A stretch of 64,000 nt of DNA, from contig JASSKH010000014.1 of NCBI GenBank assembly GCA_031763025.1, positions 8,856,563 through 8,920,562 on the forward strand. Reading direction: 5' to 3'. The translations under genes and the position numbers were made by a program. Within the stretch, counting starts at the first letter, position 1. Every line of letters starts with the position of its first letter. Of the stretch, positions 4,501 through 62,439 are shown one piece after another. This DNA is from Macrocystis pyrifera. Taxonomy: Eukaryota > Sar > Phaeophyceae > Laminariales > Laminariaceae. A model generated the notes under the pieces. It saw nothing but the letters and a program-made list of their open reading frames with translations, did no database searches and was not told the origin of the DNA.

Positions 4501-5240
4501 TTCCCACGCGTAAAAAAAGGAGAAAAACCCTTCGAGCTTGCAAAAATCTCCAAATCCCACCCCATGCAGAAACTCGTTAGATCCCAAAGTTGATTCTCCA
4601 CATCCCACTCTTGGATCGTCGCATCGCATGTATGAGCAAATCGGGGACACAAATAAAAACCAAAACCGCGACAAATCAGAACAAGCCCTCACTCGCAAGA
4701 TGCGACAGGCTGCACGCAAGCGCAGAAATCTTACGCAAAGGCGGCGTCTTCTTCGTGGTCGTGTGACGCAATTTCCATCTCTCGCCCCTGGAAGCTCACG
4801 ACAGACGTCCACTTGTTCTGGCCACGAACACAAAAGCGCGGAAAGGACAATATGAGGGATACAAGGTGGTCGCACCGAGGGCGCTGTATTGCATGGTAGC
4901 AGCTCTTTGACGCGGTTCGGAATGAGTGGTGAGCATAACTGAGCGTAACCCTCTAATATGGACATATACAGGGGGGAAAAAAGTGTCTAAAATCACTGTC
5001 GATTACAGCACTGCCCACACCAAGCAGCCTGCGCTGCCGGGGTAGGGGACGTCTCCGAAGTGCAAGGTAAGGAACTGCACACGACACATGCGCACCATGG
5101 TGGTATCGTATTGCCGCACGCTCTTCCTAGTCTCTTGATACGTCGCACCCGATTTTTCGGGCCGCTATAGATGGGCTCCCAGAGGATGAAGCCCCGGGGT
5201 ATGTATGATAGATAGGGGTGCTCGTAGCACGTACGGTAGA
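1591..5240. other. Gene-free stretch with minor low-complexity sites
   Basis: No gene is supported. The stretch holds a G run at about 1899-1911, a short telomeric stub (GGTTGGGGTTAGGGTTAGGG, 2590-2609), an A run near 3053 and an AT-rich part (3720-3860) in which ACGAACTGAAAATA occurs twice. A 171-codon open frame at 1797-2312 spans a G run, has no recognisable domain and is not called a gene. Confidence 0.45.
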
Positions 5241-5413: not shown

Positions 5414-5523
5414 CTACTACGGGGGACCACAGTAAATAGGACCAAGTATTGTTAGTAAAAATAGGTAAATATATAGGTTCTTGGAGTACCGTAGGCCCTA
5501 TTTACTGTGGTCCCCCGTAATAG
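5414..5523 (+). mobile_element. MITE-A copy 1 (TA-flanked palindromic element)
   Basis: About 110 bp with near-perfect ~30-bp terminal inverted repeats. It begins TACTACGGGGGACCACAG and ends with the matching inverted sequence, flanked by TA on each side. The middle holds the family core TTGTTAGTAAAAATAGG. It is non-coding and matches a miniature inverted-repeat transposon with TA target duplication, as in Tc1/mariner-type elements. Confidence 0.8.
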
Positions 5524-7438: not shown

Positions 7439-7490
7439 CCCACACTACGGCCATGCACGATAATGAGTACATCCCCCCCCCACACTCTCC
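7439..7490 (+). mobile_element. R1 retroposon, 3-prime end only
   Basis: Only the last ~35 bp of the R1 consensus are present (ACTACGGCCATGCACGATAA then TGAGTAC), followed at once by a C tract. Everything 5-prime of this is missing, as expected for a severely 5-prime-truncated insertion. Confidence 0.6.
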
Positions 7491-8106
7491 ACCCGTGTGT
7501 GCCGCGGTCATATGGCCGCGCGGGTGTGGTGCGGTGTGACGCGCCGGCAGTCCTTCGACTCGGGTGTATGGTACTCTCCGGCCTGGCACTTGGACTACGT
7601 AATGCTTGCTGTAGTTGCAAACGACTCACCCCATACACGAGAACATGCCAGAATACCCCTAAAAAAAGGCTACGGCATTGCAACGCCATCCACCACCGTC
7701 ACCGATGTCCAGTTTCAAAGTAAGCAATAACAACATCAGCCGCCGACGTAGAAATCAACTACGTAAATGACGTGCCGCCAGGTATAACCAAATCCCAGGA
7801 AATGATTGCGCCAGGAGCCAGAAGCCATTGGCTTCGTTGCGTTTGCGTCCTTATGCCAACACCCGACACAGCAATCGCCTCCACAAGCAGAGCATATACC
7901 GGCGTCTGGGAACTTTTAGACAGCGCTAATCGTAGCCGCCCGACTCGATGGACCCGCCCTTGTTGGCTGGGCCTGGGATTCGTTGTCGCAGCACACACAC
8001 CAAAAACGGGGGATTTTTTTTTTAGTTTACTGAAACGTACTGGTTGTGGTCGTCGGCTTAATCTCCCTTCCTTCCTTCCCCAACTCCTCCCCCCTACAAG
8101 TATGCT
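7491..8106. other. Gene-free stretch
   Basis: No gene supported. A T run (8010-8018) and a CT-rich tract (8065-8095) lead into the next R1 copy. Confidence 0.4.
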
Positions 8107-8605
8107 ATCGTCGGTTGGCAACGTCACTGTAAAACATGCCGCTCACTGCGTGAGCTAGACAACCAGGGCAACATTTCGTTTTTTTATGCGGTCTGTTACG
8201 GCTGGCGACCGAGCTAGATCACATGTGTGCGGGGTGGAGGACCTGGACTCCGCACTAGGGGAATGATCGTATCACATACCTGCTAGTGTTTATGGTAAGG
8301 CACCCACGAGGCAGTTACATAGTAAACGCAGTGCTGTCTCTGGAAGTGGCCACACCACAAAAACAAATCCATCCTTTGACGCTGTCATCCATATGCTTGA
8401 AATCCGCCTACAAACGGTTCTAGGTAGGATGCAGTTTTTTACCCTTTATGCGACTCGCTCAAACTCCTCACGGCGCTTCGGGCTTGGTGCAAGCAATGTC
8501 TGCTTGATTGGTGAAAACCTGACGTGCCCCGTCCCGGCATTGTAGGGATGCAAGGGTCTATGGTCATACGACTACGGCCATGCATGATAATGAGTACACC
8601 TCCCC
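8107..8605 (+). mobile_element. R1 retroposon, near full length
   Basis: About 500 bp matching the copies at 61858-62347 (+) and 39300-39820 (-). In order it shows a 5-prime segment TCGGTTGGCAACG, the hairpin CTCACTGCGTGAG, paired GTGCGG/CCGCAC segments, a middle block around GCTGTCATCCATATGC, and a conserved 3-prime block that runs through CCCGGCATTGTAGGGATG to GCATGATAATGAGTAC. The element is preceded by CCTCCCCCC and followed by a C-rich stretch. There is no open frame of note and no clear pol III box. Confidence 0.75.
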
Positions 8606-8835
8606 ATCCATTGATGCTGTCATGCATATGCAAGAAAATCCGCCTCTAAAGCGTTTCTCAGTAGGATGCAGCTCACCTCTCATGTGACTCGCCCAACACC
8701 TCACGGTGCTTCGCCCTTGGTGCAAATAATGTCTGCCTGGTCGGTGAAAACCCGACGTGCTCCGTTCCGGCATTGTAGGGATGCGAGGGTCCATGTCATA
8801 CGACTACACGGCCATGCATGATAATGACTACACCC
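8606..8835 (+). mobile_element. R1 retroposon, 5-prime truncated
   Basis: Begins at the internal block TTGATGCTGTCATGCATATG and runs to the shared 3-prime end GCATGATAATGACTAC. A C-run follows, then a (CCCT)n tract. It stands directly downstream of the full copy in the same orientation. Confidence 0.75.
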
Positions 8836-8913
8836 CCCCCCTCCCTCCCTCCCTCCCTCCCTCCCTCCCTCCCTCCCTCCCTCCTCCCCCTCCCTCCTTC
8901 CTCCCTCCTATCC
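8833..8913 (+). repeat. C-rich (CCCT)n tract
   Basis: Starts as pure C directly at the R1 3-prime end and becomes a CCCT/CTCC repeat. It may be the diversified tail of the R1 copy. Confidence 0.8.
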
Positions 8914-9051
8914 CCTTCTCCCACCTGATGGTGATGCAGCTGGTGCTGGTGCTGTCGATGCCGATGCTGCTGCTGGGGTTGCTGAATCTTGGGACCACCA
9001 CTGCCACCGTGTGGGAACATCTGCACCACCGACCGGACCCCAAGTTAATAT

Positions 9052-9052
<1 letters not shown>

Positions 9053-9088
<36 letters not shown>

Positions 9089-9235
9089 ACTCATTATCAT
9101 GTATGGCCTTAGTCATATGACCATAGACCCTCGCACCCCTACAATGCCGGGGCTGAGCGCGTCGGGTTTTCACCGACCAGGCAGACATTGCTTGCACCAA
9201 GGGCGAAGCGCCGTGAGGTGTTGGGCGAGGGGAAG
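9053..9235 (-). mobile_element. R1 retroposon, 5-prime truncated, with 35-bp G tract at its 3-prime end
   Basis: Read on the minus strand, the copy starts near CGCCCAACACC, carries the CCGGCATTGTAGGG block and ends CATGATAATGAGTAC. It is followed by about 34 C residues (plus strand G tract 9053-9086). The junction between the conserved 3-prime end and the homopolymer is abrupt. Confidence 0.75.
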
Positions 9236-24360: not shown

Positions 24361-25470
<1,110 letters not shown>

Positions 25471-38563: not shown

Positions 38564-41500
38564 AACCACGCCTGCTTGCCTTTGAGGGCCAGCCCCTAAG
38601 GCTTCTGAGGCTCCTTCCTCGCTTGAAGGAGCTCCAAACCTCTCACCCGAAAAACTGTTTTGTTTTTTTGAAATGCATACTGTGTGCTTAGCCCGATGAA
38701 CAATGCGATAGCCTGCTGTAGGTAAACAATGAACAATATTCTGAAAACACGTACGGGATTCCAACCACGCTAGATATCACGGGGGACATAGTAATCAACA
38801 CCCAATATGCTTGGTAAAGAATACGGGAATACGTAGGCTTTTGTGTAAATGATGGGTCCTGATTGCTATGGTCCCCCGTTTTAGTACCCCAATCGAAAAG
38901 CCCCGTCAGCCAGAATTACGTCCGCCTGAAAGCGTTTCCCCTATCGTACAGTAGCGCGCGTCCAAAGCAAATGGAACACCATGCAAGGTCGAACGAAAAG
39001 GCTTTGGGGTCGCCCGCCAGTAACAGTACAGCTCTATGGCTTGCACCGTCCGACATTCCACCACCCGACGCCGTAGGGATCGCGATGTCGCACGAAATCA
39101 TCGGGAAGGCTGGAGCGATCTCGTGGGTGCACGCGGCGCCTTTCCGGGAGGAGCTCCGAGAACTGGAGGAGTGGTTCTCGAACCCCGACAGCGTCAAGCT
39201 CAGGGCCAGCAAAGACTTCCAGTTCTTTCCCTTGGTGAGGCAGCCAGCCACGAACCATGCATTTACAGTGCGGTACAGTGCAGTAGGAGGGAGGGGGGAG
39301 GGGGAGGTGTACTCATTATCATGCATGGCCGTAGTCGTATGACCATAGACCCTCGCATCCCTACAATGCCGGGACGGAGCACGTCGGGTTTTCACCAACC
39401 AGGCAGATATTGCTTGCACCAAGCGCGAAGCACCGTGAGGTGTTGGGCGAGTCGCGTGAAGGGTAAGCTGCATCCTACTAAGAACCGCTTTTGCAGCGGA
39501 TTATCTTGCGTATGGATGACAGCGTCAATGGCTTGGTTTATTTTCTGGTGTGGCCAGTTCCAGAGACAGCAATGGGTTTACTATGTAACCGCCTCGTGGG
39601 TGCCTTACCGCGAACACTACGTGATACGATCACCCCCCTTGTGCGGAGGGAAGGTTCTCCCCGCACAAAAATGATCTAACTCGACCGCCAGACGTGGTGA
39701 CTGCCGAAAAAAAAGCCGGTATCCTGGCTGTCTAGCTCACGCAGTGAGAGGCGTGTTTTACAGCATCGTCGCCAACGGACGCCAACCCAATCTATATTAT
39801 ATGCCAGGTATATTATATAAGCGGGGGGGGGGGGACGAACTATGCCTTTGCAGTGCGGTACAGTGCAGTAGGAAGGGGGGGGGGGGGGTGGGGGTGTGTA
39901 GTCGATATCGTGCATGGGGGAGGGGGGTGTGTACTCGATAAGAGAAATGTACTCGATCTCATGCATGGCCGTAGTCATATGACCATAGACCCTCGCATCC
40001 TTACAATGCCGGGAGGAGCATGTCGGGTTTTCACCGACCAGGCAGACATTGCTTGCACCAAGCGCGAAGCGCCGTGAGGAGTCCGGCAAGTCGCATGAAG
40101 GGTGAGCTGCATCCTACTAAGAACCGCTTGTGAGGCGGACTTGCATATGGATGACAGCTTCAATGAGTTTAGTTTAATTTCCGGTGGGGAGGCGGGGTAC
40201 TTGTTGGGCCCCACTTTTCTTTTTCTAACTGATGGGACTCCTCCTCGGTTGAAGAACTACGGCACCGAAACGTTTTTGCAGTGCCATCTGCGTTTCACGA
40301 ATTTCATCGCCACATGTCTATAGCCCAAGGGATGGTGCATAAACCAAGTTGCTCGAAAAGGTGTTTTGTTTCGTATGGTCGGGTTTTGGGTGAGATACAG
40401 ACATAGCTCCTGTTATTGTTTATGCAAAATAACCTGATGAAAACCGAGTGCAGTGGCATGACCCCCACGCGAAACGTGGTATGACTCCCACGGACACCGC
40501 GGCATGAATTGACACGCACGACGCGGCATGACTGCCACGTGAAACGGAACCTGAGCATGCGCCGCTTGTGTCGCCTACCTTTTGTTTTTAGATTTGAATT
40601 CTGCGGCGGGTGGGCTTGAAACCCATCCAGTGCTGCAGATACATGTTTATGATGTACGATTTTCTAGTAGATACGCAGTTCGGAGGAGACCGGTATTGTG
40701 AGGCGAATGGTGACCTCTTTCTCATTTACGAAGTATTCGGACAAACTACACCACGTATCATTTTTTTGGTAGCACTTCTACCTGTAGCCTCTGTCGGGGT
40801 TGTCGAACTTTAAAACCCTACGTTTAGAGGTTTAACTATCCCTGGTAAACGGCTCCTCAGTCCCACAGCGAGCCACCTGATGAGACGCTTATCGTTTCCA
40901 AGAGTGTAGGTCCCACTCGGAAACAATTCGAGCTGCTGAGCATTTGTATCTGTCATCAACTTTGTGCGCTGGTGGTGGAACGCACCATCGGTTTGTCATG
41001 ACTGGATGCATGCTAGGGTAGGGTGTACCTATCATTTATTGAGGGTCCTCCCTTAAGGAGCTCCTTAGCCACCCCGAAACCTGACCTCGAAGGAACATGA
41101 TTGCAACTCGATGGACGATCTCATGGCCTTGGTGTAATGAAACACCGAAAATTGGTGGCATTCCAGCGAGATATTGGGTAGTTCTTCTGCCTAGGAATCT
41201 CGTCAATCAGAAATATTTTTGGCCAGAACAAATCACCACTCTGACCCGAAATATAGGGAACGTTAGCATATAATTATTCAGTCTAAACGGTCCATATATT
41301 TTGGTTCGGAGTGGTAGTCCTATCGTAGCACGCGTCATTGATCCAGAACGAACCTGAGAACTTTCGGTCGAAAGTCTCGGAGATCCGGTCTTACACATCT
41401 CTCTGGTTCACCAAGCTCAATAAGGAGCCTCTTGCCGGGAATGTTTTAGGCGGCCGCTCCACAACGCAATTCATTTAGCTCATAACAATTGAGTATTGTG

Positions 41501-44500
41501 TTTCAACCTAGATACCTGTTTGCAGTTGCAGCTTATTTCATCGATGCTCTACAGCGGGCAGCAAGGTCTATATAGCAAGTCGTACCGCATGTGTAATCTT
41601 TTAGTCGAACTGCCATGCAAGTTGCGGTTCGACGAATGTTTTGAAATTTTGGTTGCGGTTTCACGAGTATCGGCTGTGCCGCTGAGGAAGTCGGATCGAC
41701 AAGGTTGACAGCTGTTACGAGGGTCCATAGTTAATAGGACCTATGGTATACATAAAAACCTATATGTTTACCTATTTTTACTATTACGGGGGTCCATAGT
41801 TAACAGGACCAAATATTGTTAGTAAAAAAATAGGTAAATACATAGGTTTTTATGTATGACTATGGACCCCCGTAGTAGTAAAAATAGGTAAATATATAGG
41901 TTTTTATGTATACCATAGGTCCTATTGACTATGGACCCCCGTAATAACAACATTTGGTCCTATTAACTATGGACCCCCGTAATAGTACGTGGCAGCGAGA
42001 AGGATATCATGCCGTACGAGGAATCATACAGATTTTGTGGCCACCTACTTCGTCCCCCGTGATAGTCCGTGCCCCCATCGCCCTGAACCCAACCCAACCT
42101 AACCCACTGACCCAACCCCAATGTAAGCGGCGTGGGTCGTGTCATTAGTGGGCCCACTCCCCCACCCACCCACCGCCCATGCTTCTGTCGCACACCAACC
42201 CAAGCCCAACCCAACCAAGCCAAGCCCAACCCAACGCAATGCAACCCAACGTGAAGTTTCACATGGTGCGGCATCCTCTTGCGGCTCTCACGTCCCTCAC
42301 GGAGTGCTTCTGCGGCTGCGGCAGCATGTCATGCGGCGCCTGGGCCGACCTGCCTTCATGGAAGTGGGCGGGAAAATTCGTGGAATTCTCCGACCGATAC
42401 TGTGCCAGGTGAGCGATCGCCCACTTTGGTGTGCGGTAATTTTCATCGCCGGGGGGGGGGGGTGGAGGAGAAGGAGGGGGGTCGATCAGAGGATAGGAAT
42501 AGGTGTTGCGGTTTTGGTAACAGGCGCGTTTGTTTTGGACGGTTGTGTTCTGGTTATGTAGCAGGGCTTTTGTTTATGCATGGGTTTGCTGTGAAAAGGT
42601 TATGTTTGCCGCGCTCCGTGCCAGAAGCGGCTTGAAACAGGTACCTGGGCACCTTCTTCACCTACTAAAACATAGTTGCGTCGAGCATTGGGTGTTAGTG
42701 CAGTGGTCAAGAGAGCGTGGTGAATGGTAGCACATTTCCCCCGGGCTTGCCATTTGCTGCTGCTATAGGTTCCGTGGAAACCTTCCCCCCCTTCCCCCCT
42801 TCCGCCCCTTCCTCCCTCCCTCTCCCCTCCCCTCCCCCCCCCCCTCCCTCCTTCCCCCCGTCCGGCTGGACAGAATGAAGAATGACGAGGTTTGCGCAGT
42901 TCACAATCACCCTTACGGTAGGCTCATCCGGTCTATGGAGTACTGGGTGCAATGGAATGAGCTGATGGGGTCTCAGGCGCACTATCGACTACAATTAGAG
43001 ACGGTAGGCATGAGACGAATCGATGTTTGTTGCACATTCCTACGATAGAGGTACCCTACCTTTTTTTGTCCTCTTCTTTCTGACTGATAAGACATGGTCC
43101 TCAACTGAACAAACAACCCAATATCGCGGGAGTATCGTGCTTTTTTTTCTTCTGTTTTGTCGACATTTTGCGCCCCTCTTTTGCGAATTTAATTAATTAG
43201 ACCCCCCCCCCCCCCTCTTCTTAGTAGGATGGCAGCTCACCCTTCATGCGACTCGTCCAACACCTCACGGTGCTTCGCCCTTGGTGCAAGCAAGGCCTGC
43301 CTGGTCGGTGAAAACCCGACGTGCTCCGTCCCGGCATTGTAGGGATGCGAGGGTCTATGGTCATACGACTACGTCCATGCATGATAATAAGTGCCCCCCC
43401 CCCCCCTACATACAGGGGGGGGGGGGGTCTTCGTGTCGTGGAGTATTATGTTTCCTTGACTTGTTGCCGGGGGAGGAATTTCTCTTCATCGTTTTGGGGA
43501 AGATCCGAAGACCATTTGTCTAAGGTAGAGGTGGGACCCTGCGGGTACCCCCCAATTTTTGGAGCCCGGACCCTACCCTGCCCGCCGGGTATTGCCATTT
43601 TGACGACCGGGTACCCGGGTACCCGGCGTTCTTCATGATGTTTTTTCTCCATAATTCATTGCCACGAAGAATCAAATTTGAGTAGAAGGTAGTGTGCAGT
43701 ACTGTACTCTGTTATATGCCGAAACGACGAGTACGAACCGTTTTTAGTATTGATTCGATACACAAACCGCATTAACTTGTCTTCTTGTCGTGTATTACAC
43801 GAAAAGTGTGAAAATATGTACGATGAAGGGGCGATGGTTGACGGTCTCTCACTTAGAAGGCTGCTGTGAACGTTTTCCGACCCACTACGTACCCGATATC
43901 GGAAAGTAGCACTATTTTATCAACAAAATGATTGAGCGTGTGTAATGCTGAATTGCACTCCGTTGTATCATAGTAATACGAAACTACCGTGGATAGCTGT
44001 GATGCTGAAATTCAATCTGTTGTATCATAGTAATGCGGAACTACCGTAGGTAACATATCAACAACGGAGCGTCTTCTTGCTGGACGCCGGGGAGGCTCCC
44101 CTCGCGATGTGCTTGCCACTGCTGTTTTCCGGACCAGCGGCAACCTTTGCATTCTTGCGCTTGGGCCGGCGCACTAGCAGTAACTGCGCCCGCAACACCC
44201 GAACCCCCGTCATTGGCCTTCGGATTTTCCGCGGGCGCTGGTACCTCTTCGACGAAGTCATCGCTATTGTCCTGCTCAGATTATCTACTGCTGCTGTCAA
44301 AGCCAGGGACTGGAGAGTCTTGGCTGTCGTCGCTGCTGCTGTCTGCATCGCTTTCGAGGGCGCTTTGCACAGGCGCCCTTCAACTTTCGGCGGGATTCTG
44401 AGCAAGTTCGCCCCCCGCCAGCAATTCGGTATCCTGAGAGACCGCGCCAGGATCGCTCGCCTCCTGGCTCACTGTGCCCAGGTGGTGCCGCGTGACGATA

Positions 44501-46412
44501 CTGCCGTGTGCCGTACGCGTCCCCTTCAGCGTTGAATGTAGCTGGTTGATGGTTTATGTGGTTGACATGTGTGTGAGTGTGTGTTTTGAAAGGGTTTCCT
44601 AAAGATATTTTCCAGGCATAATGAACAGGGAATACCAATTACCCGCGGGTACCCGGGTACCCGGCCCCCGACGATGCAACTACCCGCAGGCTCCGAATAC
44701 CCGGCGGGTAATGAGCTCGGACCCTACCCGTCAAACGGAGAGGACCCGTCCGGGTATATACCCGCCGGGTACCGGGTTGTTGAAATCAGGGTCCTACCTC
44801 TACTCGAAGGGTTGCTTCGTTCGATGCTCCCAACATGGACCCCACGTTTGAGTCGTATTAAACCCCTCCTACAATACGGTTGCTTTCTATACCCAGACCA
44901 TGACGTTCTCCGTCGGGTTGCACTTGGACTTTTCCCGACGTCAGGGTTTGGTGGGGATACCATATCCTCAGAACATTTTTTTCAAACGTATTAGCAGTAC
45001 CCCTATATCGTGTGTACCATGTATCAGACTTGAAAAAAGTGAAATGGATCTGATCTGTTCAACGTGTGCAGTATTCCAAGGTTTGTTCGGTAAGATACGT
45101 ACAGAACCACACCCGGGGTATTTTCCCGCGTATTACCCGTACCCGGAGCTTCTGTGAGTTCTGTACGACATTCATGCCCGTATCCGGAAAATCTGCGAGC
45201 TCTGTGAGATTTCCATATCCGTACCCGGAATCTACAAAAAAAGCTTGCAGATCATAACCTTGCAATATGATGTCCCGAACGATCTTGATCATGGAATAGG
45301 AATCTGATCCGTCCAGCGTGTGCCCATGTTATGTCCCGAACGATTTAGATCATGGAATGGGGATCTGATCTGTCCAACTTGTGCCCATAATTTGTCCCGA
45401 ACGATCTTGATTTTGGAATGGGAATCTGATATTTCCAACCTGTGCCTATATTATGTCCCGCACGATATAGATCATGGAACGGGCATCTGATCTGTCCGGA
45501 GTGTGCCCATAATATGTCCCGAACGACCTAGATCATGGAATGAGAATCTGATCTGTCCAGCGCGTGCCATTATTATGTCCCGAGCCACCTATATCATGGA
45601 ATAAGGATCCGATCTGTCCATCGTGTTCCCGCATTATGTCCCGAACGATTTAGATCATGGAATGGGAATCTGATCTGTCCAGCGTGTGCCCATATTATGT
45701 CCCGAACGATCTATATTATGGAATGGGAATCTGATCTGTCCAACGGGTGCCCATATTTTGTCCCGAATGATCTATATCATGGAATAGGAATCTGATCTGT
45801 CCAACAGGTGCCCATATTATGCCCCGGACGATCTATATCATGGAATGTGGATCTGATCTGTCCAGCGTGTGCCGCGTTATGTCCCGAACGACCTAGATCA
45901 TGGAATGGGAATCTGATCTGTCCAGCGTGTGCCCATATTATGTTTCGAACGACCTAGATCATGGAATGGGAATCTGATCTGTCCAGCGTGTGCCCGTATT
46001 ATGTCCCAAACGACCTAGATCATGGAATGGGTATCTGATCTGTCCAGCGTGTGCCCATATTATGTCTCGAACGACCTAGATCATGGAATGGGAATCTGAT
46101 CTGTCCAGCGTGTGCCCATATTATGTCCGGAACGATCTAGATCATGGAATGGGAATCTGATCTGTCCAACGTGTGTGCACTGATGTTAGGTCAACATATC
46201 GGAGGTGGTAGAGGCAGCGTCGCAGCTCGGTACGCAGATGATGAGTGACGATAGTACTGACCCGAAGGACTTGAGGCAAAAGCCGTTCTCCAGCAAACGT
46301 AACAGGAGACGAACGGTACATGAGGTGTCGTGGGGACACGATGCGATCGGCGGACGCCGCCCTAGAGGCGAAGGTGTGGGAGCTCGCGCAATCGTACGGG
46401 TACTCCAGGTGA
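38058..46412 (+). CDS. Sulfotransferase-like gene, five recognisable exons
   Basis: Exons: 38058-38391, 39077-39234, 42257-42408, 42874-43003, 46190-46412, about 330 codons. Every junction has GT-AG borders (donors AG|GTGTGA, TTG|GTGAGG, CAG|GTGAGC, ACG|GTAGGC) and all phases agree (1, 0, 2, 0). Exon 1 ends in the PAPS-binding loop GCGRSGTHF (38340-38366). Exon 2 reads SHEIIGKAGAISWVHA. Exon 3 opens with FHMVRHPLAALTSL, matching the 3-prime-phosphate motif VRxPxxxxxS, then WADLPSWKW. Exon 4 reads LIRSMEYWVQWNELMG. Exon 5 ends ALEAKVWELAQSYGYSR before TGA. Expected role: transfer of sulfate from PAPS to a carbohydrate or protein, probably in the Golgi; the substrate is unknown. No ATG is in frame in exon 1, so an upstream exon or loss of the start is likely. 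A one-base frameshift lies near 46349. Possibly a pseudogene. Confidence 0.8.
38528..38562 (+). repeat. (CAG)n microsatellite in intron 1
   Basis: About 11 CAG units just downstream of the read-through end of exon 1. Non-coding in the spliced model. Confidence 0.85.
38774..38884 (+). mobile_element. MITE-A, diverged copy in intron 1
   Basis: TATCACGGGGGACATAGTAA faces GGTCCCCCGTTTTAG. The core TGCTTGGTAAAGAATACGGG is recognisable but much older than the other copies. Confidence 0.65.
39300..39820 (-). mobile_element. R1 retroposon, near full length, in intron 2
   Basis: Read on the minus strand: 5-prime TATAATATACCTGGCATATA, GGCGACGATGCTGTAAAAC, CTCACTGCGTGAG hairpin, GTGCGGGGAGAACC, GCTGTCATCC, CCGGCATTGTAGGG, and a 3-prime end CATGATAATGAGTACACC joining a C-rich tract (plus strand 39286-39307 G-rich). 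A C run (G13, 39821-39833) also precedes its 5-prime end. Confidence 0.8.
39836..40165 (-). mobile_element. R1 retroposon, 5-prime truncated, with conserved downstream spacer
   Basis: The R1 part is about 39936-40165 and lacks the 5-prime half. Its 3-prime end leads into C-rich sequence and then CCTACTGCACTGTACCGCAC (minus strand, 39864-39883). The same spacer follows the neighbouring copy at 39260-39290. Two R1 copies thus stand in tandem, each followed by C tract plus spacer. Confidence 0.7.
40166..41711. other. Middle of intron 2, no gene or repeat recognised
   Basis: It includes a short internal GCCACGTGAAACG / CCCACGCGAAACG repeat (40463-40545). Frames are short. Nothing supports an additional exon. 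Confidence 0.4.
41712..41990. mobile_element. Nested MITE-A cluster in intron 2
   Basis: An outer minus-oriented element starts TGTTACGAGGGTCC at 41713 and is interrupted within its TTACTAACAA core at about 41781. It resumes as ACAACATTTGGTCC at 41947 and ends CCCCCGTAATAG at 41986. The interrupting DNA is a plus-oriented MITE-A, TA-flanked, whose right half (AAAAATAGGTAAATA ... CCCCCGTA) is present twice in tandem. This gives a relative order of insertion and direct proof of the TA duplication. Confidence 0.85.
42063..42250 (+). repeat. CCCAA-rich tract at the end of intron 2
   Basis: Degenerate CCCAACCC / CCTAACCC / AAGCCCAACC words fill the last ~190 bp of the intron, ending a few bases before the proposed acceptor GTGAAG|TTTCAC. 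The region is pyrimidine-rich but A-interrupted. It resembles decayed telomeric sequence. Confidence 0.65.
42776..42862 (+). repeat. C/T-rich tract at the end of intron 3
   Basis: Almost pure CCCTTCCC-type pyrimidine, directly before the acceptor CTGGACAG|A of exon 4. It can serve as an exceptionally long polypyrimidine tract. Confidence 0.7.
43201..43394 (+). mobile_element. R1 retroposon, 5-prime truncated, in intron 4
   Basis: Starts directly after a C16 run at TCTTCTTAGTAGGATGG, holds CCGGCATTGTAGGGATGC, and ends CATGATAATAAGTG, then C14. C tracts lie on both sides. Confidence 0.75.
43515..45240. mobile_element. Possible transposon with GGGTACCC-rich inverted ends, in intron 4
   Basis: Left block about 43515-43625 (GGTAGAGGTGGGACCCTG ... 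CCGGGTACCCGGGTACCCGG) and right block about 44630-44815 (the same words inverted, ending CAGGGTCCTACCTCTAC) face each other around ~1 kb. More (A/T)CCCGTACCCGGA words continue to 45230. Repeated ACCCG-type subterminal motifs are known from hAT-type elements (weak inference). Inside, a minus-strand frame at 44150-44500 gives an acidic, Ser/Asp-rich stretch (SALESDADSSSDDSQDSP) with stops, possibly the tail of a former transposase or nuclear protein. Confidence 0.4.
45262..46180 (+). repeat. 61-bp satellite, about 15 units, in intron 4
   Basis: The unit carries ATGTCCCGAACGA(C/T)CTAGA, TCATGGAATGGGAATCTGAT and CTGTCCAGCGTGTGCCCATA in succession. The first three TGTCCCG words are at 45271, 45332 and 45393, an exact 61-bp period. 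Later units are nearly identical and early units more diverged. An outlying half-unit is at 45045-45070. The last unit ends ~10 bp before the acceptor of exon 5. Confidence 0.95.
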
Positions 46413-46436: not shown

Positions 46437-46505
46437 GTCTATGGTCATACGACTATGGCCATGCATGAGATCGAGTACATCTCTCCTATCGAATACACCC
46501 CCCCC
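46437..46505 (+). mobile_element. R1 retroposon, 3-prime end only
   Basis: A C tract (46429-46437), then GTCTATGGTCATACGACTAT and GGCCATGCATGAGATCGAGT, then CACCCCCCCCC. It lies 25 bp downstream of the sulfotransferase stop codon. Confidence 0.65.
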
Positions 46506-47338
46506 CGTCCCCGTCCCCCCGCCCGTCACACATGGCGCAGTAGAGGTTTTGCGACGCCATGGATTGCGCGATAGTAGCACATCCATGCAGCATCGAGATG
46601 GAAACCCCTTTTTTCCCTTCTCGCCAACTTCAAAGTGAATGAAAAAATGGCCTTCATGAAAAACGAAGAAAAAAACAAGACGAAAAGCCTAACACTCGTA
46701 TATAGTTCCGTAGAATATGTTCTATCAAGAGCTTCGAATCGTACTGCTGTTCGCGGGCAAGGACTTGGGCGTCATACGTTTACCACGTGTCGGAATTGAT
46801 CACCGGTTCCCACACAACGATCTAGATCGTTCAGGGCAGCTATGTTCCTGATCGATTTGATGTAGCTCATGTTGCCGGGTGGAAGCCGTATGGTCTGCAT
46901 GATTTAGCACATGATTGCTGGGTTATACGAGTCCTGCACAACATCTCACGACGGCAGGTTAGGATACAGATGATCTACTGTAGATAGATAGATCATGATC
47001 AATCTGTAGATGATCTGTCCGACATGTGGAAATTTCCATGCATAGGTGGCCTCTCGCGTTTTTATTAGTTTTTACACGTGATACGTACGTAGCTCAGCAG
47101 CAGCCTTCTTTTTTGTTTTCGTCTTCGCGCGTGGTACATACATAGCGCGGGAGCAGTTTTGGCAATCGCTTGTTGCGTGATGGCGAGATGGCAGAAGTAC
47201 AACACTACTGTAGTATGCAGGTGCCGGCGTTGGCTGTATATTTCAACACAGGGTGGTGGAATAGTTTCGTCTGGCGTTTAACTTGACGTGTAACTCGGCG
47301 TTTTTTTGTTGACAGACACCGAACGGCATGGCGATTTG

Positions 47339-47340
<2 letters not shown>
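46506..47340. other. Gene-free stretch
   Basis: No supported gene. GATCTAGATCGTTC and GATGATCTGTCCGACATGTG words at 46819 and 47008 recall the 61-bp satellite and may be decayed relatives. Confidence 0.4.
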
Positions 47341-47435
<95 letters not shown>

Positions 47436-47457
47436 ACCCCCCCCCCCCCCCCCCCCC
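47341..47457 (+). repeat. C homopolymer tract
   Basis: 117 bp of C with one A at 47436. The Gly/Pro frames over it are meaningless. Either a collapsed or expanded homopolymer or an artefact. Confidence 0.95.
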
Positions 47458-58809: not shown

Positions 58810-61040
58810 AGAGTGTCACGGACGACCCTCGCGGGAGGGGGAACCTATCCCCGAGGATCCACGCCCGCGCACTCGATCAACAGCTGGTTGTGAACCTTCT
58901 CCTGTCTGAAGGAAACAAGGAAACAAGCCCTGGGGAAGCGTGCCCCGGGGGACGAAGCCCTCGCACTCAAGCAGCTGCGGGCGTACGAACGTTGACCTCC
59001 GACAGGGGGGGGGGGGGGGGGGTAGCTCTGGGGAACCTAGCCCTCGTACACAAGCCGCGATTGAATAAGCCTTCCGCGGTTCGGTACTAGCGACACGCTC
59101 GGAAAGGAGGAACCGAGCCCTAGGGGGCCGAGCCTTCGCACTCGTACAACTGCCGACAGTGAACTAGATGTCCCGTTGGAAGGGGAAAGCGGGAATCCAG
59201 CCCTTGGCAAACAAAAGAAAAGCACCCAAACTGAATGATTCTCTCGCGATGTCGGCACAGCCGACGCTCGCGGGAGGAGGGGCCTAGCCCTGAGGGACCT
59301 AGCCCTCGCACTTAAGCACCTGTGGGCTGTGACCTGTTGTCTCGTCCGAAAGGGAACAAAGTGGGGGAGAACCCAGCCCTCGTAAATAAACGCACTAAAG
59401 CTGCATGCGCCTCGCGCGGTGTCGGCCTAGCCGACGTTCGCGGGAGGGGGAACCTAGCCCTGGGGAACCTAGTCCTCGCACTCACTCGCGGGAGGGGGAA
59501 CCTAGCCCTGAGGAACCTAGCCCTCGCACTCAAGCAGCTACAGGCTATGAACTGTTGTCCCGTCTGAAAGGGAAAAAGGGAACCCAGCCCTAGGAAACAA
59601 ACACGCCAAAGCTGAATGAGCCTCCCGCCGTGTCGGCACAGCCAACACTCGCGGGAGGGGGAACCTAGCCTTGGGGGACTCGGCCCTCGTACTCCAGCAG
59701 CTAGAGGCTGCGAACTGTTGTCCCATCCGAAAGGGAAAGGGGGCACCCAGACCTCAGAAACTAACACACCAAAGCTGCATGCGCCTCGCGCGATGTCGGC
59801 ACAGCCGACGCTTGCCGGAGGAGGGACCTAGCCCTGAGGACCCTAGCCCACGCACTCAAGCAGCTACGGACTGTGAACTGTTGTTCCGTCTGAAAGGGAA
59901 AATCGGGAACCCAGCCCTCGGAAACAAGCACACCAAAGCTGAATGTGCCTCTCGCGATGTCGAACCGGCCCATGCTCGCGGGAGGGGGAACATAGCCCCC
60001 GCACTCGAGCAGCTGCAGGCTGTGGTCTGCTGTTCCGTCTGAAAGCGAAAGGAACCCAGCCCTCGGAAACGACAACACCCGAGCTGACTAGGCCTTTCGC
60101 GATGTCGACACAGCCGACATTCGCGGGAGGGGGAACCGAGCCCTCGCACTCAAGCAACTGCATGCTGTGAAAACTTGTTCCGTTGACATAGCGGGGGAAC
60201 CCAGCCCTGGGGAAGCCTAACCCTTGTACGCTGGCAACGGTTGAATGAGCTTTCCAACCCTTCGGTACGGCCGACACGCGCAGAAGGGGAACCAAGCCCG
60301 GGGGAGAACCCCCCTCGTACTCGCGCAGCTATGGGCTGCAAACGGTTGTCTAACGGGGGAGGGGGGAAGGCAACCCGGCCCTCCACAGCGAAACGTCCGA
60401 AAGGAATGAGCCTCTCGCGATGTCGGTACTGCCGGCACTCGCAAGAGAGGGGACCTAGCCCTGGGGAACCTAGCCCTCGCACTCAAGCGGCGACAGGTTA
60501 TAAACGCTGTCCTGCCACAGGAAAGGGGAACGAAGGCCCTGGGAACCTAGCCCCGTACGCAAGCGGCGGTTGAATGAGGCTTTCATGGTTCGGGACAGGC
60601 GACACGCACGGAAAGGGGAAGCAAGCCCTGAGGGACCGAGCCCTCGCACTCACGAAACTGCAGACTGGGAACTGTTGTCCCGTCTGAAAGGGAAAAAGAG
60701 GGAGCTCAGCCTTCTGAAACGAAACGCCAAACCTGAACAAGCCTCTTGTGCTGTCGGCACAGCAGCCGCTCGCAGGAGGGGGAACCTAGCTCCGGGGAAC
60801 CTAGCCCTCGCACACGACCAGCTGCGGGCTGTGAAGGCTTGTTCTGTGGACATGACAGGGGAACCTAGCCCCTGGGGAAACTTAGCTCTAGTACGCTGGC
60901 AACGGTTGGATAAGCCGTCCCACGGTACGGCCGACGTGCGTTCGAGGGGGAACCAAGCCCTGGGGAGGCCAAGCCCTCGCACTCGAGCAGCTGTGGGTTG
61001 TGCACGGTTGCCATGTTTAAAAGGAAATAAGTAACCTGGC
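58810..61040 (+). repeat. Degenerate tandem array, ~165-170-bp unit
   Basis: A dozen or so units. Each has CTCGCGGGAGGGGGAACCTA, GCCCTCGCACTCAAGCAGCT, CTGTTGTCCCGTCTGAAAGG and CTCGCGATGTCGGCACAGCC. Unit starts include 58824, 59267, 59437, 59649, 59811, 59976 and 60119; a partial unit is inserted at 59486. Several units share a plus-strand frame giving SREGEPSPGEPSPRTQAAT, but frames break between units. A G run (59007-59022) interrupts the first part. Confidence 0.85.
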
Positions 61041-61857
61041 CCTCGCGGTTGTCTGTTGCGCGCACACTCGTGAAAATCCTTGTACCACCACGAGAACACT
61101 TCCGAGTGTTCGATCGAGGAGAGGGCAGGGGAGAAGTGATCTGACATGGACGTCAAGGGAATCGACCTGCGCGGGTCTGCGGCGCACCGACACTGCAGTA
61201 CGAACCCGCCGGGTCTGCTGTCCTGCGCCCCTACCACCAACCCATTTGTGGCCCGCAATCACTCTCTGCGCTGCGTCATTCGTACTCACACCACGCTGTT
61301 TTGTGTTAGACACTCACTGTGAAACAAGGCCGGCGAAACCGATCCGGGTGTGGGAACGCGGTGAAGTCCCACGGACCTCGAGGCGTCAGCGAACACCTCG
61401 CTTGCTCCTCCTGGCTCACCCCCACCCGTGGTCGGCCCTGTCTGGCGGCAAAGCCCATATGGTCTGTTGCCACCCCTGCCTCTGGTCGCTCCGGCATCTG
61501 AGGGAGACGCGTTCTACGGTAGAGATGACACTTTTCCGCTATTTGTTTTTCTGAATGACGGGGTTCCTAACCCAAAATCGTCGGAATGTCAATTTTGTTT
61601 CGAAAAATGAAGTTTTTGTGTACTTGGGTCATCGAATGATTCATCGGGATGCAGTTTGTTTCTTTTGCTGAAGTCAGTTTTCGGGTGAGATATGAAGCCC
61701 TTAAAGTGAGGAGCCTCAGAAAAACTAGGGTGAACCTCTATCGCAGAACGCCTCGGGAGCCGCACCGTTCTCGCCTCCGGTGTAACTCCTGCTGAACCGC
61801 CCGACGCTCGGCACCCCCCCCCCCCAGCCCCTATATTATATACCTGGTATATATAAA
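61041..61857. other. Unresolved sequence between tandem array and R1
   Basis: A minus-strand frame at 61017-61313 includes NDAAQRVIAGHKWVGGRGAG, which is plausible protein sequence and might belong to the same retroelement. No domain is recognised. A C run (61807-61820) precedes the R1 copy. Confidence 0.3.
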
Positions 61858-62347
61858 GTTTGAGTTGGCGTCGGTTGGCGACGACGCTGTAAAACACGCA
61901 TCTCACTGCGTGAGCTAGACAGCCAGGGTACCGTGTTGTTTTTTTTTGGTGGTTACCACGACTGGCGGTCAAGTTGGTCATTTTTGTGCGGGGAGAACCT
62001 TCACTCCGCACAAGGGGGATGGTCGTATCACGTAGTGTGTATATGGTGAGGCATCTACGAGAGGCAGTTACATGGTAACCCCATTGCTGTCTCTGGAAGT
62101 GGCTACACCAGAAATTAAATCAATTAATTGATGCTGTCATCCATATGCAAGAAAATCCGCCTCTAAAGCGGTTCTTGGTGGGATGCAGCTCACCCTTCGT
62201 GCGACTCGCCCAACACCTCACGGCGCTTCGCGCTTGGTGCGATCAATGTCGGCCTGGTCAGTGAAAACCCGACGTGCTCCGTCCCGGCATTGTAGGGATC
62301 GAGGGTCTATGGTCATACGACTACGGCCATGCATGATAATGAGTACC
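61858..62347 (+). mobile_element. R1 retroposon, full length reference copy
   Basis: About 490 bp: TTGAGTTGGCGTCGGTTGGC, GCTGTAAAACACGC, hairpin CTCACTGCGTGAG, GTGCGGGGAGAACC/CTCCGCAC pairing, GGCAGTTACATGGTAACC, GATGCTGTCATCCATATGCA, CACCTCACGGCGCTTCG, CCCGGCATTGTAGGGATC, and GCATGATAATGAGTAC then CCCCCC. C runs lie at both ends. It sits downstream (in minus sense) of the gag-like pseudogene and interrupts the interval between gag and RT. Confidence 0.8.
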
Positions 62348-62439
62348 CCCCGCTCCCCCAGCTACGCTGCTTCCCCCGGCGCCGGGGGCCTGCAGCCGCT
62401 GAGGTGGAGGGGGAAGGGGCAGGGGAGGGGGGAGGGATA

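Follow-up and report, generated by a model that had tools for sequence, protein, structure and literature searches.

R1, a short retroposon of the giant kelp Macrocystis pyrifera, and a likely partner LINE, both bounded by C tracts

The short repeat R1 of the giant kelp is very probably a non-autonomous retroposon that is copied in trans by a kelp LINE targeting oligo-C/G tracts, with the G strand of the tract serving as primer. Nine copies of R1 lie in the window, the whole 64,000-nt stretch of DNA that was analysed:

7444..7472, + strand: R1 copy i, ~30 nt, 3' end only; C8 (7430-7437) before, C9 (7473-7481) after.
8100..8605, + strand: R1 copy a, near full length, without ~35 nt of the AT-rich head; 5' side CTCCTCCCCCC, 3' tail CACCTCCCC.
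8608..8831, + strand: R1 copy e, 5'-truncated, sitting directly in copy a's C-rich tail; C9 and (CCCT)n on the 3' side.
9088..9229, - strand: R1 copy g, 5'-truncated; C-rich on the 5' side (sense CCCCCCTTCCCC), C35 (9053-9087) on the 3' side.
39310..39822, - strand: R1 copy b, full length; C12 (39823-39834) on the 5' side, C/T-rich tract on the 3' side; ~41-bp imperfect duplication on both sides.
39948..40189, - strand: R1 copy d, 5'-truncated, 5' side CCCCGCCTCCCCACC; tail of repeated ATCGAGTACAC-like units, then C14 (39875-39888).
43218..43393, + strand: R1 copy f, 5'-truncated; C14 (43202-43215) before, C13 (43394-43406) after.
46437..46478, + strand: R1 copy h, ~42 nt of the 3' end; C10 (46427-46436) before, tail repeat and C9 (46498-46506) after.
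61826..62346, + strand: R1 copy c, the full-length reference (521 nt); preceded by C12 (61814-61825) and followed by C-rich sequence.

With the R1 region as query, BLAST against the window returned the self-match and eight other places, with E values of 2e-6 to 1e-124. The 23-nt R1 3' end is found eight times in the window at up to three mismatches, against 0.00 expected (100 shuffles); copy f (43218), which has more changes within these 23 nt, was missed by this motif search and added by BLAST, and all nine copies claimed in the preliminary description are thus real. That they have the same 3' end and pass from it into C-rich sequence holds as well, with f, d and h carrying a variant form; in d and h the C-rich sequence is reached only after the repeated tail unit, and in some R1 tails an extra unit, ATCGAGTACATCTCTCCTATCGAGTACACCCC, stands ahead of the C tract. 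Two of the earlier measures change. Full length is about 520 nt rather than ~490 bp, an AT-rich head (TATATAATATACC...) being visible right after the C12 run in copies b and c, and the minus-strand copy placed at 39836 is a match at 39948-40189, position 39836 lying in a duplicated stretch that adjoins C12. C-rich sequence is present on the 5' side too, which the earlier description lacked (C12 at b and c, C14 at f, C10 at h, C8 at i, and CCCCCCTTCCCC at g); it is weaker at copies a and d, and copy e lies in the tail of copy a. Of the 24 C/G tracts of at least 8 nt in the window, 11 have an R1 end no more than 60 nt away. Some R1 copies (L006, L011, L016, L020, L023, L025 and L029 of the loci described below, and window 46437-46506 and 39890-39970) end like GAGATCGAGTACATCTCTCCTATCGAGTACACCCC, with a repeat of their last ~10 nt ahead of the C tract that resembles a slippage tail.

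The host assembly measures 537,376,219 bp in 223 contigs. A search of it with R1 gave 6,948 first-look candidates, 40 of which were scored; the figure of 6,948 is not a copy count, and the genome probably holds thousands of R1 copies. The counts given here were drawn from the window, from loci L001-L030 (chosen by a long R1 match), L031-L050 (chosen by a match to the LINE endonuclease) and L051-L054 (6-kb stretches around LINEs); L001, which belongs to the window, was excluded, and two upstream stretches, L055 and L056, stand outside the counts. Chaining of matches gave 68 R1 pieces and 46 LINE pieces, and the former include eight of the nine window copies, the 30-nt copy i falling below threshold. 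The 5' junction set consists of 67 R1 and 26 LINE junctions; dropped from it were pieces that a locus end interrupts, LINE pieces whose match opens at the query start, L048 and L051. Twenty-nine of the R1 pieces are the matches by which loci were chosen; they were selected for near-full length, which biases 5' completeness over the whole set. The other 39 come from the neighbourhood of further R1 or LINE copies and do not sample the genome at random.

In this sample both elements have the fixed 3' end and variable 5' truncation that are the hallmark of target-primed reverse transcription. The 3' end is reached within 10 nt by 64 of 67 R1 pieces and 21 of 25 LINE pieces; two of the three R1 pieces that miss it still have GAGTAC and then Cs, and the four LINE misses are the main piece of L051 (internal deletion), L048 (broken by another repeat), L022 (which passes straight into a C-run) and L013 (truly short). 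The 5' ends, by contrast, are spread from nt 1 to nt 484 of 520 in R1; in the LINE they range between nt 118 of the query and the point at which 56 nt are left. Among the 39 R1 pieces that were not used for fetching, nine are 5'-complete and 35 of 38 are 3'-complete. The preliminary description had read R1 as a retroposon from its constant 3' end and 5' truncation and had proposed to see whether, over genomic copies, 3' ends coincide while 5' ends scatter; they do so in the copies sampled, and the reading is supported. We observe in addition that 11 of the 26 LINE 5' junctions (L053, L012, L021, L009, L004, L013, L020 and L022) fall within query nt 4586-4599, a 14-nt stretch that coincides with the start (4590) of the domain common to LINE and R1 (see below). 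Many LINE copies accordingly hold little beyond this 3' domain, as mini-copies of ~56-69 nt, which represent either a strong stop for reverse transcription or a separate mini-retroposon.

Some R1 copies are clustered locally (window 7.4-9.3 kb and 39.3-40.2 kb; L012, L019, L020 and L021), as would be the case if C tracts recombined or slipped against one another and R1 thereby multiplied as DNA, in tandem or segmental duplications. The window copies, however, are 9-20% diverged from copy a by BLAST, 3' ends coincide where 5' ends do not, R1 copies lie on many contigs with differing flanks, and the ends are common to an element that codes for proteins, the LINE. We consider spread as DNA extremely unlikely.

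C tracts, read on the sense strand of the element, border both elements on both sides. A C-run of at least five lies within 25 nt upstream of 46 of the 67 R1 and 21 of the 26 LINE 5' junctions, against a background of 3.5% for 20,000 random positions in the same loci; at the ends of other window repeats a C-run is found in 8 of 275 cases and a C or G run in 19 of 275. Upstream G-runs of at least five are absent (0/67 for R1 and 0/26 for the LINE, 0/93 together). The R1 figure rises to 52/67 if the count takes in the first 6 nt of the match, and 26 of 38 R1 pieces not used for fetching have such a C-run at the 5' junction by the same count; in some full-length R1 copies the Cs are hidden inside the match. 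On the other side, a C-run of at least five lies within 45 nt downstream of 55 of 64 R1 and 20 of 21 LINE copies, and G-runs are found there in 2/64 and 0/21. C-runs are present on both sides in 42 of 63 R1 and 12 of 15 LINE copies (the upstream part counting the first 6 nt of the match). Against this pattern, there is no C-run of even four in the 25 nt before the junction in 14 of 67 R1 and 4 of 26 LINE cases; the upstream sequence is seemingly truly C-free at L006, L009, L014, L034 and the LINEs of L013 and L026, and the L026 LINE has no C-run on either side.

The Cs could instead be a tail, the RNA ending in a C tract (templated or made by slippage) and insertion having no preference for such tracts. 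Nearly all 3' ends do pass into C-rich sequence, some of it very long (C35), and the repeated ATCGAGTACAC units of some tails look like slippage tails. A tail alone, on the other hand, predicts no C-runs upstream of truncated copies, where runs of at least five are found in 17 of 30 R1 and 21 of 26 LINE cases, and predicts neither insertions in the C tracts of a minisatellite nor insertions behind the ends of older copies, both of which are described next. We judge this explanation very unlikely.

The neighbouring empty units of that minisatellite and the nested insertions indicate that the C tract precedes insertion. The minisatellite, at 18.89 Mb of contig C211, has a 32-bp unit like GTGTGATAAGATAGCACCCCCCC. 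Among 22 segments from L052 (some of them fragments) most have a C-run of 4-7, one has C11 and a few have none; in a 118-nt segment an R1 3' end (37 nt matched, plus the tail repeat) lies inside the C tract, with C13 before and C23 after it, and the unit sequence resumes directly behind. At the same locus the C11 of another unit (L032) precedes a 5'-truncated LINE; between the LINE's own C tract and the return of the array lie ~50 nt, with a further C-run and a little non-unit sequence. As for nesting, a GAGTAC-type motif is found no more than 60 nt upstream of 21 of 67 R1 and 8 of 26 LINE junctions. This 6-nt motif is loose and expected by chance at ~5% by rough arithmetic, and chance may account for one or two of the LINE cases; insertion behind older copy ends can be read clearly in individual loci. 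A C tail without a target is rejected as sole explanation by the upstream C-runs of truncated copies and by minisatellite units that carry the tract without an insertion. The wording "C tracts instead of a poly-A tail" in the preliminary description is accordingly unsupported, C tracts being present on both sides and the minisatellite and the nesting indicating that the tract came first. An added C tail may still accompany the pre-existing tract on the 3' side, in a mixed model of target plus tail.

Visible target-site duplications begin with the C tract, as does CCCCCCCGCGTCTT in L021; the others are CCCCCCGATTAT, with one change, around a LINE of L017 (near the locus end and outside the counts), and CCCC(T)TCTACGTTAG, with changes, in L015. 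Duplications that extend past the C tract are rare and are clear by eye only in L015, in L021, at the one L017 LINE and, oddly, at window copy b. The general signal for duplication of a copy's own flanks is weak (105 of 10,000 permutations are as high; 78 copies); duplications made of Cs only are invisible, and a weak signal is what would be expected, though it is no proof, if most duplications consist of Cs only. Copy b is flanked by a ~41-bp imperfect duplication, TACTGCACTGTACCGCACTG...GTTCGT (window 39250-39875), with 12 Cs between the upstream duplicate and the element. A simple target duplication does not explain this arrangement, which fits an added tail and possibly reflects non-templated addition or an older tandem duplication.

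The likely partner of R1 is an APE-type LINE of the same genome. A PF14529 profile search of the genome gave 41 matches, and the LINE copies in four stretches around such matches are 94-96% identical to each other. The LINE has an AP-like endonuclease and a reverse transcriptase, as is typical of APE-type LINEs, with scores of 28.8 bits for PF14529 (cut-off 27.4) and 81.8 for PF00078 (cut-off 29.6); in L053, whose second frame is split in three, Exo_endo_phos_2 is matched at E 1.2e-6 and RVT_1 at E 7.2e-23. Among solved structures the closest reverse transcriptases are 8c8j (an RNA-directed DNA polymerase by its entry) and L1 ORF2p 8uw3, at E ~3e-18, followed by R2; this order is not a clade assignment. 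One LINE copy spans C212:7073657 to 7079174 (5,518 nt), L055, L050 and L022 being parts of it, and the full length is ~5.9 kb when pieces of several copies are joined (1,144 + 1,037 + 3,717 nt minus a 4-nt overlap). Like R1 the LINE is bounded by C tracts; its 5' end in two copies (L055:3358 and L056:3365) is at CCCCCTCCC and CCCCCC. The 5' part contains tandem repeats of roughly 127 nt (L055:3567-4200, L056:3574-4234), and the small first frame has 118 codons. The last frame ends ...KGCVVNGQMTKASNK-stop, the stop TGA lying within AAATGAGTAC, and in most copies only GTA or GTACG (3-5 nt) separates the stop from the tract, a few copies having some nt more. Nineteen LINE copy ends were examined and 15 could be evaluated; 12 of these 15 read the last codons without an inner stop or a shift, the exceptions being L003, L009 and L004.

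R1 resembles this LINE at both ends, in the following parts of copy c:

61861..61899, + strand: R1 5' domain, nt 36-74 of copy c; 90% and 87% identity to two LINE 5' ends.
62274..62345, + strand: R1 3' domain (72 nt of copy c), resembling the 65 nt at the end of the partner LINE.

The terminal 72 nt of R1 match the terminal 65 nt of the LINE at 71% identity (E 1.8e-5). The consensus 3' ends score 31.5, where the highest of 5,000 letter shuffles reaches 17; without the last 12 nt the score is 27.5, again with 17 as the shuffle maximum. At the other end the 39 nt of the R1 5' domain match the two LINE 5' ends with E values of 1.7e-8 and 2.2e-7. The R1 middle, ~375 nt, has no convincing match in the LINE parts searched.

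A shared 3' fold is plausible from structure prediction. The minimum-energy folds of an R1 end (window 62272-62348) and a LINE end (L022:943-1012) are alike. Both are predicted to be closed by a GUGCUC/GAGUAC stem and to form two hairpins, a small one (UCCC/GGGA or GUCUC/GGGAU) and one on UGGUC....GACUA. Their stability is not unusual (z of 0.10 and -1.67). RNAalifold found nothing (-0.39 kcal/mol) on 34 mixed R1 and LINE ends, in which the families look misaligned in the 5' part, and for both-side changes among 53 R1 sequences (52 distinct) 22 of 500 and 2 of 500 shuffles are as high for two versions of the fold, with little beyond slid controls. At the 5' end, predicted folding gives a z of -2.0 for the LINE and of -0.1 to -0.8 for three R1 heads.

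Searches for another source of R1 found no tRNA in the window (ARAGORN, 0) and no Rfam family at the gathering threshold in the whole window, copy c giving only two weak unrelated matches at E<=5; Rfam likewise detects no HDV-like ribozyme at the 5' end of R1 or the LINE. Ten window ORFs, of which two overlap copy b, match no Pfam family at E<=0.01, and one scan of viral contigs for exact matches to the 23-nt R1 end gave 0. An origin from a tRNA, 7SL or another known RNA was rejected, none having been found by ARAGORN or Rfam and the head matching the LINE 5' end instead, but R1 may have a very diverged Pol III head or an unlisted Pol III promoter. The earlier statement that R1 has no clear tRNA or 7SL origin stands to the extent that no known RNA family is found, and gives way where the origin is partly resolved, both ends resembling a LINE of the same genome. 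Of the features of a classical SINE, R1 has the 3' end common to a partner LINE and lacks a head derived from tRNA, 7SL or 5S; like RIME and NARTc it has both ends in common with one LINE and no coding capacity. Since both ends are shared with the LINE and no known RNA family is recognised, R1 is best called, from sequence likeness, a LINE-derived passenger like RIME and not a classical SINE. RIME also has the 3' end of its LINE, ingi, in common with it.

The mechanism that we propose would begin with recognition by the LINE protein of the shared ~65-nt 3' RNA domain. In a C/G tract, the LINE endonuclease or another agent would expose a 3'-OH on the G-rich strand; the oligo-G end so formed would pair with the C-rich RNA end and prime reverse transcription, and the copy would be joined upstream within or just past the same tract. 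The G strand is named as primer because under target-primed reverse transcription the 3' junction demands that strand. Each insertion would turn one C tract into two, so that the R1/LINE pair would renew its own target, which would explain the nested clusters.

The nick would come either from the LINE endonuclease or from breaks in G-rich DNA. If the latter, insertion would be endonuclease-independent: breaks or stalled forks at G/C tracts prone to G-quadruplexes would give G-strand 3' ends that the reverse transcriptase only uses. This alternative differs from the preferred explanation only in the source of the nick, and the confidences placed in the two overlap; by itself we think it rather unlikely. 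It agrees with the long G/C tracts of the window (G387, G59 and C96) and with the scarcity of visible duplications, as repair-like joining predicts, and is opposed by the APE-type endonuclease that the LINE encodes and by the clear duplications of L021, L017 and L015. Returning to copying by the LINE with the G strand of the tract as primer, we see about even chances that the pair forms a mononucleotide-homing system, in which an APE-type LINE and its passenger would use G-strand 3' ends as primers, the folded 3' recognition domain would lie inside the coding end of the LINE, and each insertion would double the target, so that the family would spread its own landing sites.

Insertion of R1 and the LINE is mostly into a defined repeat that appears to have been present beforehand, as is usual for target-specific non-LTR elements; this is seen in the flanking C-runs with their controls and, at one locus, in the empty minisatellite units. 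Several known systems are similar in part. In trypanosomes the ingi/RIME and L1Tc/NARTc pairs each comprise a short non-coding element that has the 5' end of a LINE and is moved in trans, and their insertion is not random (PMC8190864). R1 is likewise non-coding, with 5' sequence common to its LINE, and differs from those pairs in a 5' end without an Rfam-detected HDV-like ribozyme, an oligo-C target, and a middle of ~375 nt unrelated to the LINE parts searched. Togen targets (TG)n, and Togen and some HERO families are microsatellite-targeting elements of the restriction-like-endonuclease group; APE-type target-specific elements occur in the R1 and Tx1 clades (PMC4640811). The kelp pair resembles Togen and HERO in inserting in simple repeats, a plentiful target, and is unlike them in that the LINE endonuclease is of the APE type and the target a C/G run. 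The ~70-nt 3' end common to a short and a long element, with similar predicted stem-loops, is as in stringent-type SINE/LINE pairs, whereas the kelp 3' domain lies inside the LINE reading frame, with the stop 3-5 nt before the tract in most copies, and the kelp end is C-rich and not A-rich or a short tandem unit (PMC3747384). Nested clusters of LINE copies are also formed by the green-algal Zepp, which in Coccomyxa has one cluster per chromosome; unlike Zepp, R1 and its LINE are on many contigs and mostly in C tracts (PMC3446292).

Repeats make up 57.6% of the giant kelp genome, and the main text of the paper that describes it does not contain the words "SINE" or "retrotransposon" (PMC10498591). 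A search of the literature, with most subscription journals, Repbase and supplementary tables beyond its reach, found no poly-C-targeting LINE and no R1/LINE family of kelp. Microsatellite-targeting LINEs, pairs with shared tails, RIME-type passengers and nested clusters are thus each known singly; no case combining them with a plain C/G target and an APE-type enzyme came up in the literature searched, although a Repbase entry may exist.

Target-specific LINEs serve as models of how target-primed reverse transcription selects its sites. From a pair directed at C-runs it would seem that pairing between a homopolymer primer and the RNA end can suffice for this selection, and the target would be common, mostly harmless and self-renewing. 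R1 and the LINE would be the source of probably thousands of kelp repeats and, with 11 of 24 window tracts near R1 ends, would help to explain the origin of C tracts in a large, repeat-rich kelp genome.

Other repeats of the window were noted in passing. Very long tracts, which could be true sequence or an effect of assembly, lie at 24996-25470 (G387 and G59, with short interruptions) and 47340-47457 (C96 and C21), with no adjoining R1. A palindromic, MITE-like repeat, CTACTACGGGGGTCCATAGTTAATAGGACC ... GGTCCTATTAACTATGGACCCCCGTAGTAG, is found at 5414, 5733, 6924, 23612, 27172, 31832, 36005 and 41713-41940; by eye, one copy of it breaks the L048 LINE and one lies in the L052 array. Tandem arrays are present at 45146-46297 (61-bp unit) and 58817-60858 (~163-bp unit), and degenerate, telomere-like repeats of the GGGTTAGGGTCAGG type lie inside the contig at 987-1522 and 33951-34019.
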